From: Deltaproteobacteria bacterium | GTDB taxonomy: Bacteria > Desulfobacterota > DSM-4660 > Desulfatiglandales > Desulfatiglandaceae | Length of the DNA stretch: 64,000 nucleotides | NCBI GenBank assembly: GCA_021737785.1 | Contig: JAIPDI010000002.1 | Location: 62,001-126,000, forward strand | Direction: 5' to 3' | Part shown: in pieces, positions 29,008 to 34,474 of the stretch | How the letters are laid out: each line of letters starts with the position of its first letter | Numbering within the stretch: position 1 is the stretch's first letter | The notes under the pieces: model-generated | Seen by the model: the letters and a program-made list of their open reading frames with translations, nothing else | What the model was told of the DNA's origin: nothing | Databases searched by the model: none | Program-made: the position numbers and the translations under genes

Positions 29008-29496
29008 ATGGACGTTCAAAAGATTCTTAAAGGAAAGCGGATCCTAATTGTGGACGATGAGGAGGATATCCTCGATTTTCTGACAGAACTGCTGGAGATG
29101 TGCAAGATCGACAGGGCATCAAACTTTGAAGATGCGAAAAACCTGCTTGAATCCAATTATTACCATGCGGCCGTGCTCGATATTATGGGGGTTCGGGGAT
29201 ATGAGCTGTTGGAAATCGCTAATAAACGGGAAGTTCCGGCCCTTATGCTGACGGCCCATGCCCTCTCACAGGACAACCTGAAAAAGTCGTTTAAGGAAGG
29301 GGCTGCCTATTATGTGCCCAAGGATGAAATCGGCAAGGTGGATGTGTTTTTGGCAGATATCCTCGATGCCATCGACAAAAAGAAAAACGTTTTTACCAAA
29401 TGGTACGAAAGGTTGAGCGGATTTTGCGACAGGAGATTCGGCCCCAACTGGAAGGACGATGACCCAGATTTCTGGAATTCTCTGATGAAGTATTGA
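29008..29496 (+). CDS. Single-domain response regulator
   Basis: A CheY-like receiver with a short C-terminal extension (162 residues). Acidic pocket at Asp16-Asp17 (LIVDDEED), phospho-acceptor Asp58 (AAVLDIMGVRGYELL), switch Thr82 (MLTAHAL) and Lys105 (YYVPKDEIG) are all present. After residue 125 comes a basic/aromatic tail (KWYERLSGFCDRRFGPNWK) without a known output domain. No histidine kinase is adjacent. AAGGAGG precedes the start. The role is probably protein-protein signalling; the stop lies at the head of a weak GAATTGAGG-type repeat. Confidence 0.92.
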   Translation: MDVQKILKGKRILIVDDEEDILDFLTELLEMCKIDRASNFEDAKNLLESNYYHAAVLDIMGVRGYELLEIANKREVPALMLTAHALSQDNLKKSFKEGAAYYVPKDEIGKVDVFLADILDAIDKKKNVFTKWYERLSGFCDRRFGPNWKDDDPDFWNSLMKY

Positions 29497-29698: not shown

Positions 29699-30739
29699 AT
29701 GACAAGAAAAGGGGTTGGCATCACGATTACGCAGCACATCTTACAGCAACAGCGGCAGAATCCCGAGGCGACCGGCGGCTTTACTACCCTCCTCAATGAA
29801 TTGATCGTTGCGGCAAAGGTGATTTCGAGAGAGGTGAACAAGGCGGGCCTCGCAGATATTCTGGGAGCTACCGGCCGCACCAATGTGCAGGACGAGCAGG
29901 TCCAGAAGCTGGATGTATTCGCCAACAGCGTCATCATCGAACGGCTGCAACACCTGGGCCAGCTCTGCTGCATGGGTTCTGAAGAAGACGCAGACCTGAT
30001 CGATATCCCATCTCAGTATCCGAAAGGGAACTACATCATTGTCTTTGATCCGTTGGACGGATCTTCAAATATCGACGTCAATGTGAGCATCGGCACCATC
30101 TTCGGCATCTACAAGAAAGTAAGCCAGGAGAACGACATCGACATGCTCATGAATGATTGCCTGCAGCCGGGCATAAACCAGGTGGCCGCCGGCTATTTCA
30201 TCTACGGTTCCAGCAGTATGATGGTCTACACCACAGGCAATGGAACCGGCGTGCATGGCTTTACCCTCTATCCCAGCGTGGGGGAGTTCCTCCTCTCTCA
30301 CGAAAATATCCGCATTCCGCAAAGGGGAAAAATCTACAGCGTCAACGAGGGCAACGAGGCATTCTGGGATGAAAAAACCAATGCCATGGTGAATTATTTC
30401 AAGGCCAAAGACCGGGAAAGCGGCCGGCCCTATACGTCCAGATACATCGGAAGTCTGGTGGCCGATTTTCACCGCAATCTCCTCAAGGGCGGGATCTTCA
30501 TGTACCCGGCGGATAACAAAGACCCCAGAAAGTCAACCGGAAAGCTGCGTCTGATGGTGGAGGCCAATCCTCTTGCACTGGTGGTGAGAGAGGCGGGGGG
30601 GTATGCCAGCGACGGTTACGGGCCGATTCTCAATATCAACCCGACGGAATTGCACCAGAGAGTCCCACTCTATATCGGCAGCAGGGAAGACGTTGAAATA
30701 GCCGAGGAGTTTATCAGCGGGAGAAGGAGTTCATCCTGA
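29699..30739 (+). CDS. fbp: Fructose-1,6-bisphosphatase, class I
   Basis: Gluconeogenic phosphatase converting fructose-1,6-bisphosphate to fructose-6-phosphate; 346 residues, close to the usual 330-340. Metal site: MGSEEDAD and the strong FDPLDGSSNIDVNVSIG. Substrate site: SRYIGSLVADFHRNLLKGG and the C-terminal GKLRLMVEANPLALV with REAGG. In eukaryotes class I FBPase is inhibited by fructose-2,6-bisphosphate and AMP; the fact that a PFK-2/FBPase-2 lies 2.5 kb away makes that regulation possible here. AAGGAGG precedes the ATG. Confidence 0.97.
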   Translation: MTRKGVGITITQHILQQQRQNPEATGGFTTLLNELIVAAKVISREVNKAGLADILGATGRTNVQDEQVQKLDVFANSVIIERLQHLGQLCCMGSEEDADLIDIPSQYPKGNYIIVFDPLDGSSNIDVNVSIGTIFGIYKKVSQENDIDMLMNDCLQPGINQVAAGYFIYGSSSMMVYTTGNGTGVHGFTLYPSVGEFLLSHENIRIPQRGKIYSVNEGNEAFWDEKTNAMVNYFKAKDRESGRPYTSRYIGSLVADFHRNLLKGGIFMYPADNKDPRKSTGKLRLMVEANPLALVVREAGGYASDGYGPILNINPTELHQRVPLYIGSREDVEIAEEFISGRRSSS

Positions 30740-30748
30740 CGCGGGGAC

Positions 30749-31396
30749 TCAGGCGGCAACAGAATAAAACCGCTCTTCAGGGAGTTCTATACAGGTCAAC
30801 CGGCGTCCATAAACAGCCCCGGTATCGATGCCGATCTTGTTTTCCATGATGAGCGGCCGGGGAAACGGCGTGTGGCCGAAGATGACCTTCTTTCCAAAAT
30901 CATATTCCGAGGAAATGAAGGGCTCCCGGATCCAGATCATATCCTCCACGGACTGATGTTCTATCTCTATGCCCGGTCGAAAACCGGCGTGAACCACATA
31001 ATAGGCTTCCAGTTCTATGAACGGCTTCAGGGAACGGTAAAAAGACATATGGTCAGGGGGCAACAGAGCCCCCTCCCCTGCCGGTTTTCCCGCCAGATAG
31101 TCTCTCAATGTGGTCATTCCCCTGTTGGCAAGATAGAGATCCTGATTGCGGCCTGCGAGATAATCCAGCAGCATGGCCTCGTGGTTCCCCAGAAGACAGG
31201 TCACCTGAGGGTCCGTTCGGATGAGATCGAGGATAAGGTCTACCACGGCCCTGGAATGGGGTCCCCGGTCGATGCAGTCTCCCACAAAAACCAGTCGGTC
31301 CCTCCCGGATCGCCATGGAATCTCATGGAGAAGCCGTTTCAGCAGGTCGAGACACCCATGGATGTCGCCTACCACAAATGTCTTTTCCCTCTCCAT
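30749..31396 (-). CDS. Metallophosphatase, ApaH/PrpE-like
   Basis: A calcineurin-like phosphoesterase of 215 residues. Dinuclear metal motifs: VVGDIHGCLD, VGDCIDRGPHS, LLGNHEAM, VVHAGFRPG and IFGHTPFPRP. This is the serine/threonine protein phosphatase or diadenosine-tetraphosphatase group; substrate cannot be decided. Its start overlaps the stop of the radical SAM gene by one base (TGATG), so the two are translationally coupled. It is convergent with fbp, 9 bp apart. Confidence 0.92.
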   Translation of the reverse strand: MEREKTFVVGDIHGCLDLLKRLLHEIPWRSGRDRLVFVGDCIDRGPHSRAVVDLILDLIRTDPQVTCLLGNHEAMLLDYLAGRNQDLYLANRGMTTLRDYLAGKPAGEGALLPPDHMSFYRSLKPFIELEAYYVVHAGFRPGIEIEHQSVEDMIWIREPFISSEYDFGKKVIFGHTPFPRPLIMENKIGIDTGAVYGRRLTCIELPEERFYSVAA

Positions 31397-32331
31397 CAGA
31401 ATCCGAAAATGATGCGGGGCCGCTCCCTGGAATCCAGGCGATGCAGCCCTGCCTTTCTGGCCGCTGCCACGGCCTCCCGGTACTCCTGCGAGGTCAGTCT
31501 CCGGTTGACGGCGGGATCCGCCTCTGCCGGACCGCAGGGCCGGTACTGGTCCATGACGTTGAGATAGGTGTCTTTTGATATCTCCTCGGCCAGGAAATTC
31601 ATAATATCAGCGGTTCCGGCCACGCCGTCGGGCATGACCAGATGCCGCACCAGAAGCCCTCGAACGGCGATCCCCTCGCTATCCATTACCAGATCGCCCA
31701 CCTGACGATACATCTCCCGGATGGCCGTCCTGGCCGCGTCCGGATAATCGGGTGCATGGCAGAACCGCTCGGCCCACGAATCCTCCCAGAACTTGAAATC
31801 GGGCATATAGATGTCGACGATCCCGTCCAATAGTCGCAGGGTCTCTATGCTCTCATATCCGCCCGAGTTGTAGACCAGCGGGATATTCAGACCTTTTTTA
31901 ACGGCGAGTTCAAGGGCCTCCAGGATCTGCGGCACCACATGGGTAGGCGTCACCAGATTGATATTGTGGCACCCCTTCTCCATCAGGTCGATCATCATGC
32001 CGGCAATCTGGTCAGGCACGACCTCAATCCCTTCATTGAGGTGGCTGATCTCAAAATTCTGGCAGAAGGTGCAGAGGAGGTTGCAGGAACTGAAGAACAG
32101 GGTCCCTGAGCCGTGCCTTCCCACCAGCGGGGCCTCTTCGCCGAAATGGGCGTTGTAACTGGCGATCCTTGCATTCCTCCCGGTACGGCAATACCCGGTC
32201 TTGCCATTGGGCCGGTCCACCCCGCACGATCGGGGGCAAAGGCAACACGCCTCCAGCAGACTCAGGGCCCTGTCCACGCGACGGGCAAGCTCCCCCTCCC
32301 TGTAAAGTCTTAGATAGGACGGCTCATTCAT
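31396..32331 (-). CDS. Radical SAM protein, PflX-like (COG1313)
   Basis: A 311-residue protein related to pyruvate formate-lyase activases. The radical SAM motif SSCNLLCTFCQN is preceded by an extra cysteine set (CCLCPRSCGVDRPNGKTGYC), typical of this uncharacterised subgroup. Further marks are TPTHVVPQILEALE and the conserved NSGGYES and LDGIVDIYMPDFKF. The target is unknown; some members may activate glycyl-radical or related enzymes. It forms a tight pair with the metallophosphatase. Confidence 0.9.
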   Translation of the reverse strand: MNEPSYLRLYREGELARRVDRALSLLEACCLCPRSCGVDRPNGKTGYCRTGRNARIASYNAHFGEEAPLVGRHGSGTLFFSSCNLLCTFCQNFEISHLNEGIEVVPDQIAGMMIDLMEKGCHNINLVTPTHVVPQILEALELAVKKGLNIPLVYNSGGYESIETLRLLDGIVDIYMPDFKFWEDSWAERFCHAPDYPDAARTAIREMYRQVGDLVMDSEGIAVRGLLVRHLVMPDGVAGTADIMNFLAEEISKDTYLNVMDQYRPCGPAEADPAVNRRLTSQEYREAVAAARKAGLHRLDSRERPRIIFGF

Positions 32332-32354
32332 GGGTTGGCGACCCCCAAAACAAA

Positions 32355-32390
32355 ATCCCCCTGAAAGACAGCCAGCGCCTTCAGGGGGAT
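32355..32390 (-). terminator. Probable intrinsic terminator after the Bax-inhibitor gene
   Basis: A 11-bp perfect stem (ATCCCCCTGAA / TTCAGGGGGAT) with a 14-nt loop, followed on the minus strand by TTTTGTTTTGGG. It lies 21 bp beyond the stop of the BI-1 family gene and before the start of the radical SAM gene. Confidence 0.75.
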
Positions 32391-32411
32391 ACGGTCATAC
32401 ATCAAAAAGTA

Positions 32412-33116
32412 CTATTCGCGGGATCCCCCGAATATTCTGAGCAGCATCAGGAACAGGTTGATAAAGTCGAGGTAAAGGGAGAGGGCGCCCAGGATAGCCC
32501 CTTTCCGCACCACCGCGCCATCCACGCCGGCCGGTTGGGTGAGGGCCATGTTTTTCAGCTTCTGGGTGTCATAGGCCGTCAACCCCACAAAGACGATGAC
32601 CCCGATATAGCTGATAATCATGCTCATGGCGCTGCTCCGGATAAACATATTTACCAGGGATGCGATGATAATCCCTATCAGGCCCATCATGAGAAACCCG
32701 CTCCACGACGTCAAATCCTTCTTGGTGGTCCATCCATAGATGCTGCATGCGACAAAGGTGCCTGCGCAGATGAAAAAAGTGCTGACAATGGACGTCCGGG
32801 TATAGACCAGGAATATGAAAGAAAGCGTCACCCCGTTCAGGGCTGAATAGATCACAAAGAGTGACGTGGCCGTCCCTGCGCTCATACGATTGACCGCCCC
32901 GGCAAGCGCAAATACCATGCCCAGTTCCGCCAGTATCAAGACAAAGAATATCATCGAATTTCCAAATATGAGACGCATCATCGTCTCACTGCTCGAAACA
33001 TAGAGCGCCACGACCCCAGTGAGACAAAGCCCCACCGCCATCCAGTTGTAAACACTCCTGACAAAGTCATTTACCAAAACTTCGCTACGGGATCTTGCAA
33101 CGGAAGTCTGTGCCAT
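32412..33116 (-). CDS. Bax inhibitor-1 (YccA/YbhL) family membrane protein
   Basis: A 234-residue protein with seven hydrophobic segments from about residue 22 to 228. Family marks are NDFVRSVYNWMAVGLCLTG near the N-terminus, GVTLSFIFLVYT, and AYDTQKLKN in the last loop, with aspartates (ALSLYLDFINLFL) in the final helix. Family members act as pH-sensitive calcium leak channels or interact with the FtsH protease; the role here is unknown. A hairpin terminator follows. It is divergent from the PFK-2/FBPase-2 gene, with 134 bp between them. Confidence 0.95.
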   Translation of the reverse strand: MAQTSVARSRSEVLVNDFVRSVYNWMAVGLCLTGVVALYVSSSETMMRLIFGNSMIFFVLILAELGMVFALAGAVNRMSAGTATSLFVIYSALNGVTLSFIFLVYTRTSIVSTFFICAGTFVACSIYGWTTKKDLTSWSGFLMMGLIGIIIASLVNMFIRSSAMSMIISYIGVIVFVGLTAYDTQKLKNMALTQPAGVDGAVVRKGAILGALSLYLDFINLFLMLLRIFGGSRE

Positions 33117-33250
33117 TCCTACCTCCTTCTAAATATGCCTGCTCTGCAGGAAATTTTCTTGATTGAACAATTCATGTTGAATTATAACTGTTTTGAAAAA
33201 AATTTCAAGATGATAAATCCGTCACTTCAACACGCAACGCCCTGGGTGAA

Positions 33251-34474
33251 ATGGATACTGCTAAAAAACTGTACATTGTAATGGTCGGGTTGCCCGCCAG
33301 GGGAAAATCGACCATCGCCGGCAAATTAAGAGAAAACCTGGTTCGGGACCACATAAAGGCCCGTATTTTCAACAATGGGGATCTCAGAAGAAAGCTCAGC
33401 CCTGAAGACACCTCCTATCCTGAATTCTATGACCCCGGCAACAGACAAGGGGCGGCACTTAGAGAAAAGATCGCCCTGATCAATATCAGACGGGCCATCC
33501 ATTACCTGGAGGGGAGCGGCCGGGTTGCTATCCTGGACGCCACCAATGTCAGCGCCGGGAGGAGGAAGAGAACCGCCGAGATGCTCAACGACCATCCGGT
33601 TCTCTTTATTGAATGCATCAACCAGGATGACGAGATCCTCAAGGCCAGCATTGATCGAAAGGTGACGCTACCGGAGTTCAATCACCTGGGAAGGGAAGCG
33701 GCCATTCAAAGTTTCAGACAACGCATCCACTATTATGAGTCCATCTACACCCCTGTCAAGAAGGAACGCAATTTTGTTCGGCTGGATTCACTTTATAACA
33801 AGATCCTTTACGAGGAACTCTCAGATGATATTCCCCATTACGACCTGATCCGGGATCTTCTGGTTGCCGACACGGTCAAGAATCTCTTTCTGATCCGACA
33901 TGGGGAAACCTACTTCAACCTTGAAAACCGGATCGGCGGTAATTCGGGTCTGACCGAAAACGGCAAGGTCCAGGCCAGGGCATTGGCCCGGTATTTCAGA
34001 AACAGGGATATCCCGGTGATCTTTACAAGCAGCAAAAAGCGGACCGTACAGACGGCCTTTCCGATCATGCGCGGACAACAGAACGCCACTATCATTCCCC
34101 TGAAGGAATTCGACGAGATCGACAGCGGGGCCTGCGAGCGGATGAGCTATGCGGAAATCCGTGATAAGATGCCGCACGTGTATATGGCGAGAAAACACAA
34201 CAAGTATAATTATGTCTATCCCCAGGGAGAGGGATATGTCTCCATGAAGGAGCGGGTGGACAAGGGCATCAAGAAGGCCCTGTATCTGAGCCGCAATCCC
34301 CAGAACATTATGATCGTCGGTCACAGGGCCGTCAACCGGATGATCCTTTCCCACTTCCTCTACCGGCGGGAAGAGGATGTTCCCTATATCTATGTGCCCC
34401 AGGACAAATTCTACCACATCGTGGCCACCCAGACCAAAAAGCTCTTCCAGTTAAAGCCCTATGACATGAGCTGA
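33251..34474 (+). CDS. Bifunctional 6-phosphofructo-2-kinase / fructose-2,6-bisphosphatase
   Basis: A 407-residue fusion with the domain order of the eukaryotic enzyme. Residues 1-210 form the P-loop kinase: GLPARGKST (13-21), FNNGDLRRKL and LDATNVSAGRR. Residues 211-407 form the histidine-phosphatase: RHGET with His217, the RIGGNSGLTENGK stretch, Glu289 in FDEIDSGACERMSY and His358 in VGHRAVNRM. All three phosphatase residues are kept, so both activities look intact. The product fructose-2,6-bisphosphate is a regulator of glycolysis in eukaryotes and rare in bacteria. The class I FBPase gene is nearby. The ribosome site is weak. The stop codon runs directly into a heptamer array. Confidence 0.9.
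   Translation: MDTAKKLYIVMVGLPARGKSTIAGKLRENLVRDHIKARIFNNGDLRRKLSPEDTSYPEFYDPGNRQGAALREKIALINIRRAIHYLEGSGRVAILDATNVSAGRRKRTAEMLNDHPVLFIECINQDDEILKASIDRKVTLPEFNHLGREAAIQSFRQRIHYYESIYTPVKKERNFVRLDSLYNKILYEELSDDIPHYDLIRDLLVADTVKNLFLIRHGETYFNLENRIGGNSGLTENGKVQARALARYFRNRDIPVIFTSSKKRTVQTAFPIMRGQQNATIIPLKEFDEIDSGACERMSYAEIRDKMPHVYMARKHNKYNYVYPQGEGYVSMKERVDKGIKKALYLSRNPQNIMIVGHRAVNRMILSHFLYRREEDVPYIYVPQDKFYHIVATQTKKLFQLKPYDMS

Follow-up and report, generated by a model that had tools for sequence, protein, structure and literature searches.

In animals, plants and fungi, 6-phosphofructo-2-kinase/fructose-2,6-bisphosphatase (PFK-2/FBPase-2) makes and breaks fructose-2,6-bisphosphate (F2,6BP), a switch molecule of sugar burning. 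This metabolite is usually presented as a signal of eukaryotes, a single exception among bacteria having been noted, and class I fructose-1,6-bisphosphatase (FBPase) is the type of FBPase that it inhibits. The exception, the former deltaproteobacterium Desulfovibrio desulfuricans, in which F2,6BP has been reported, is noted in PMC9721465, citing Rider et al. 2004. Because the bacterium considered here, which is of the sulfate-reducer type, falls into the same broad group as Desulfovibrio, the basic idea of bacterial F2,6BP is not new. The present locus stems from another lineage, the family Desulfatiglandaceae, and differs in that fbp, the gene for a class I FBPase, lies close to the gene for the bifunctional enzyme. 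It was found in a stretch of 64,000 nucleotides of contig JAIPDI010000002.1 (the window). A first-pass annotation of this DNA had placed the two genes within 5 kb of each other, and both reading frames were indeed present at exactly the ends given there. We conclude that the PFK-2/FBPase-2 is real, intact and, judged from its sequence, very likely bifunctional.

The bifunctional protein and the class I FBPase

Like the mammalian enzymes PFKFB1-4 (PDB 1k6m, 2axn), the window protein consists of a P-loop kinase followed by a histidine phosphatase. Pfam placed a 6PF2K domain (PF01591, 126 bits) at residues 3-173 and a His_Phos_1 domain (PF00300, 125 bits) at residues 212-390, both above the gathering score, and the same kinase-phosphatase fusion occurred in relatives. 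We take PF00300 to be a branch-1 histidine phosphatase domain, and a 6PF2K kinase fused N-terminally to such a domain to define PFKFB. The closest solved relatives were mammalian PFKFB enzymes only, with residues 7-384 aligned (human PFKFB3 6ibz, E 2.7e-57). The single-domain bacterial histidine phosphatases CobC, GpmB and PspA share the phosphatase superfamily, but lack the fused kinase and the PFKFB fructose 6-phosphate (F6P) pocket of the window protein, which scored far under the cut-offs of the corresponding NCBIfam models. At the match scores of this protein and of the fbp product, chance is no issue.

Individual residues were checked in 84 bacterial homologues with 38-83% identity to the window protein. 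Positions are given in PFKFB3 numbering, with the functional roles established for this enzyme family. The motifs quoted in the first-pass annotation were correct: the P-loop GLPARGKST, His217, Glu289 and His358 aligned with the Lys47 loop, His253, Glu322 and His387 of PFKFB3. In the P-loop, GLP and GK were invariant in 64/64 homologues, and GK in 84/84. Neither the F6P-binding and catalytic residues of the kinase (R74, R75, R98, D124, K168, R189, Y193) nor the catalytic and F6P-recognition residues of the bisphosphatase (R252, H253, E322, R347, K351, Y362, H387, R392) varied in any of the 84 sequences. Y333 of the phosphatase F6P pocket was present in 82 of them. Since the catalytic and nearly all F6P-binding residues are thus kept in these relatives, as in the mammalian enzymes, synthesis and breakdown of F2,6BP are very likely.

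A serine at position 302 goes along with the weak phosphatase activity of PFKFB3. All 84 bacterial homologues carried an arginine there, as does the liver enzyme, and because of this a working phosphatase is expected. Other features set the window protein apart from its mammalian counterparts. Its identity to PFKFB3 was about 34-40%, its P-loop begins at residue 13 instead of about residue 41, its C-terminal tail is short, and the position of PFKFB3 Gln388 was an arginine in 64/84 bacterial homologues. An AlphaFold2 model built from 26 family members reached a predicted local distance difference test score (pLDDT) of 90.2, and the 26 top matches of this model in a Foldseek search of the PDB were all PFKFB.

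The fbp product showed the N- and C-terminal FBPase domains of Pfam (PF00316/PF18913; 231 and 146 bits), matched the NCBIfam equivalog NF006778 'class 1 fructose-bisphosphatase' with 476.7 bits (cut-off 368) and aligned with E. coli FBPase (2gq1) at E 1.1e-94. No other FBPase of class I, class II or the archaeal type turned up in the genome, searches with PF03320 and PF01950 for the latter two having returned nothing. The earlier claims of an intact bifunctional enzyme and of an FBPase of the F2,6BP-inhibitable type in its company were borne out. As in E. coli class I FBPase (2gq1, 2qvr), the sugar-bisphosphate site is conserved: the metal and sugar-site residues 74, 97, 98, 118, 121, 212, 243, 244, 264, 274 and 280 (human numbering) were all retained. 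The site for adenosine monophosphate (AMP; human T27, K112, Y113, R140) differs from that of the E. coli enzyme. T27 and Y113 were kept, whereas Lys112 is replaced by asparagine and Arg140 by lysine.

Distribution in Desulfobacterota and candidate targets

We surveyed 395 genomes of the phylum Desulfobacterota, a carrier being defined by a Pfam 6PF2K match of more than 100 bits. The bifunctional gene was present in 57 of them, about one in seven. All sampled genomes of the window's family (9/9) and of family f2 of the same order (5/5) were carriers, and the three genomes of the third family of the order (f3) gave no 6PF2K match; nor did the E. coli control genome. A scan of genome contigs seeded with the protein yielded 47 loci. 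Almost all of them came from records whose titles name Deltaproteobacteria, Desulfobacterales or similar groups, and the homologue of strain NaphS2 showed 71% identity. No plasmid record matched at least 80% of the bifunctional protein, the matches listed covering the phosphatase domain only. With 57 carriers and 47 contig loci, the statement of the first-pass annotation that bacterial homologues are few does not hold for Desulfobacterota. We found no description of the family-wide distribution, of the co-occurrence with FBPase or of the residue conservation in the openly accessible literature.

Class I FBPase was encoded by 57/57 carriers, compared with 172/338 non-carriers (Fisher 2e-15). 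Counted by family, it was present in 10/10 carrier families versus 61/107 families overall (P about 0.003), and this family-level count is the safer figure for the co-occurrence.

From homology, residues, distribution and co-occurrence we infer the two activities, the presence of the effector in the cell and its target. The N-terminal P-loop kinase would convert F6P and adenosine triphosphate (ATP) to F2,6BP, and the C-terminal histidine phosphatase would return F2,6BP to F6P via a phospho-His217 intermediate. The balance of the two activities would presumably be set by metabolites, since the regulatory extensions that the animal enzyme carries at its N- and C-termini are largely absent. The likeliest target of F2,6BP is the class I FBPase. 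Competition at the conserved sugar-bisphosphate site of that enzyme would slow gluconeogenesis and so curb the flow of carbon into sugars. A signalling role of F2,6BP in this organism is plausible, and control of FBPase by the bifunctional enzyme through F2,6BP is the best explanation of the present data and probably the right one. If this large protein family of Desulfobacterota does make F2,6BP, a central metabolic switch would be common to domains, and bacterial genomes that have just one FBPase would allow its origin to be studied. With carriers beside non-carriers, Desulfobacterota also provide a natural experiment.

Several observations weigh against this explanation. In carrier families outside the window's order, fbp was far from the bifunctional gene or on another contig. 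The sugar site of FBPase was invariant in genomes with and without the bifunctional enzyme alike. Since it is equally conserved where that enzyme is missing, the FBPase bears no mark of a dedicated target; a special sugar site in carriers was looked for and none was seen. Binding of F2,6BP is possible, but nothing in the site singles it out. Further, a fused PFK-1 of the eukaryotic type, the best-known other target of F2,6BP, was not found in the window organism, the three PFK-A paralogues of the genome all being single-half proteins. Finally, superposition of the whole modelled chain on the mammalian crystals was poor (template modelling score, TM, 0.48; root-mean-square deviation about 16-17 A), although the phosphatase domain alone superposed well (TMt 0.90). 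The predicted domain placement thus differs from that in the mammalian crystals, which may be real or may be a modelling error.

A separate observation concerns the AMP site of FBPase. Lys112 was lost in 48/50 carriers versus 38/50 non-carriers (P 0.008, not corrected for phylogeny), which is suggestive of a weaker AMP control of the carriers' FBPase; we did not use it as evidence.

Phosphofructokinase (or pyruvate kinase) instead of FBPase could be the main target of an F2,6BP that is made and broken down as proposed, with a paralogue devoid of the phosphate-donor motif as receptor in the window's order. Overall, we consider this unlikely. Among the three PFK-A paralogues, L080 is of the pyrophosphate type with a GGDD motif, and L081 of the trypanosome-like ATP type with GGDG (best PDB match 2hig, E 3.2e-110). 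The third, L079/L204, lies in the same genome outside the window (L079:1354-2451, minus strand, equal to G000:C24:15252-16349) and is odd in that its GGED donor motif is replaced, by GGPNS in the window genome and by GGFDN, GGFDS or GGSEN in relatives. The replacement was found in 9/9 members sampled from f1 and f2, two families of the window's order, and each of these genomes carries the bifunctional gene, whereas 21/21 sampled orthologues from other families retained GGEDT. The F6P-contact motifs were kept, and LSHLQRGG changed to LRHLQRGG, an arginine being gained next to HLQRGG. Eukaryotic PFK-1 has GGFEA in its regulatory half, compared with GGDGS in its catalytic half. The half with GGFEA is the one that became the F2,6BP site (role of this half: PMC12203962), and the odd paralogue resembles this F2,6BP-binding half. 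However, the loss of the donor motif was probably one evolutionary event with no independent replication, and the catalytic aspartate (PKTID) is retained. Moreover, six carriers in families f33 and f35 had an intact donor motif, carriers G070, G132 and G033 had no match, and G208 and G252 had a weak one only. Because it is confined to one lineage, we regard the resemblance as a lead and not as functional evidence. That the window's order has a complete F2,6BP circuit of its own, separate from the eukaryotic one, in which the bifunctional enzyme would act on class I FBPase as one target and on a PFK-paralogue receptor converging on the GGF[D/E] state of the regulatory half of eukaryotic PFK-1, is a speculative idea to which we give little credit. 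The odd paralogue may nevertheless be more novel than the bifunctional enzyme itself.

Alternatively, the protein could act as a kinase/phosphatase pair on another phosphorylated sugar, such as a cell-envelope or storage-sugar intermediate, while keeping the PFKFB fold. The modest identity to human PFKFB3, the long branch that separates the two in the tree described below and the fact that we found no biochemical test of the bacterial clade would be compatible with this. Yet in each of the two domains the residues contacting F6P and F2,6BP varied hardly or not at all among the 84 sequences, which would be unexpected after a change of substrate, and the only conserved neighbour from a sugar pathway was fbp, in one order. 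We therefore find such a switch of substrate quite improbable.

Descent of the bifunctional gene

The tree comprised the 84 bacterial sequences and human PFKFB3 as the sole eukaryotic sequence. All but one of the bacterial sequences (83/84) grouped in a single clade with strong support, which a long branch separates from the human protein and in which the host families emerged with the minimum number of changes. Judged from this topology, the family is an old Desulfobacterota clade that tracks its host families. The GC content at third codon positions (GC3) of the bifunctional gene was 0.674, within the range of its neighbours (0.63-0.72). As a recent event, the gene transfer that the first-pass annotation suggested as a possibility is not supported, given the host-following clade, the neighbour-like GC3 and a gene block common to relatives; a recent transfer from a eukaryote was rejected on the same three observations. 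With this tree and its single eukaryotic sequence, an ancient transfer in either direction would still fit. The bifunctional protein is thus a little-studied but real feature of an old bacterial family and not a new kind of thing.

That the gene is a recent eukaryotic acquisition or an assembly contaminant is hardly conceivable: eukaryotes do harbour the best-known members of the family, and one carrier outside the main clade was possibly an independent acquisition, but the clade of the other 83 sequences follows the host families with the fewest changes, the gene block recurs in many independent assemblies, GC3 resembles that of the neighbours and every sampled genome of the window's family carries the gene.

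The carrier outside the main clade is L002:853-2049 (minus strand) of genome G359, a PFK-2/FBPase-2 with 38% identity to the window protein. It may have a separate origin through independent acquisition.

Gene neighbourhood

The features of the locus are collected in Table 1. In the list of open reading frames of the window, the plus strand holds both fbp and the bifunctional gene, with a gap of 2.5 kb. An operon of the two was ruled out by the three minus-strand genes in between, and their close linkage was seen only in families f1 and f2. The survey of fbp neighbourhoods gave the same picture, close linkage to the bifunctional gene occurring in the window's order only (ten genomes, 3.3-5.4 kb). 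Since the bifunctional gene has its own divergent upstream region of 134 bp, shared with the Bax1-I gene, and a convergent gene behind it, it is probably transcribed alone, as a monocistronic unit.

Table 1. Positions of the genes and motifs of the locus in the window
Feature	Position	Strand	Remarks
Single receiver-domain response regulator	29008..29496	+	Directly upstream of fbp; position kept in relatives
Class I fructose-1,6-bisphosphatase (fbp)	29699..30739	+	346 amino acids; NCBIfam, Pfam and E. coli FBPase match
Metallophosphatase (ApaH/PrpE-like)	30749..31396	-	Between fbp and bifunctional gene; Pfam Metallophos 56.6 bits
Radical SAM protein, weakly AmmeMemoRadiSam-like	31396..32331	-	Between fbp and bifunctional gene
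Bax1-I/YccA family membrane protein	32412..33116	-	Pfam Bax1-I 217.6 bits
Bifunctional PFK-2/FBPase-2	33251..34474	+	407 amino acids; Pfam, PFKFB3 match, residues, model
Kinase P-loop GLPARGKST, residues 13-21	33287..33313	+	Aligned to PFKFB3 GLPARGKT
Phosphatase catalytic RHG (Arg216-His217-Gly218)	33896..33904	+	Partners Glu289 and His358 downstream; residue alignment, 84 homologues

The block of response regulator, fbp, metallophosphatase-sized gene, radical SAM gene, Bax1-I gene and PFK-2 gene was common to independent assemblies of many relatives, a reading frame of metallophosphatase size occupying the same place in them. The response regulator was found upstream of fbp in relatives L039, L040, L042, L047, L049 and L051 as well, and in several relatives a second homologue of it (51-54% identity) followed the bifunctional gene at a distance of 5-7 kb downstream. 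As regards the weakly AmmeMemoRadiSam-like radical SAM protein of the block (31396-32331 in the window), a protein encoded beyond the bifunctional gene in L039 (L039:17154-18029) looked, by eye, like its Memo partner.

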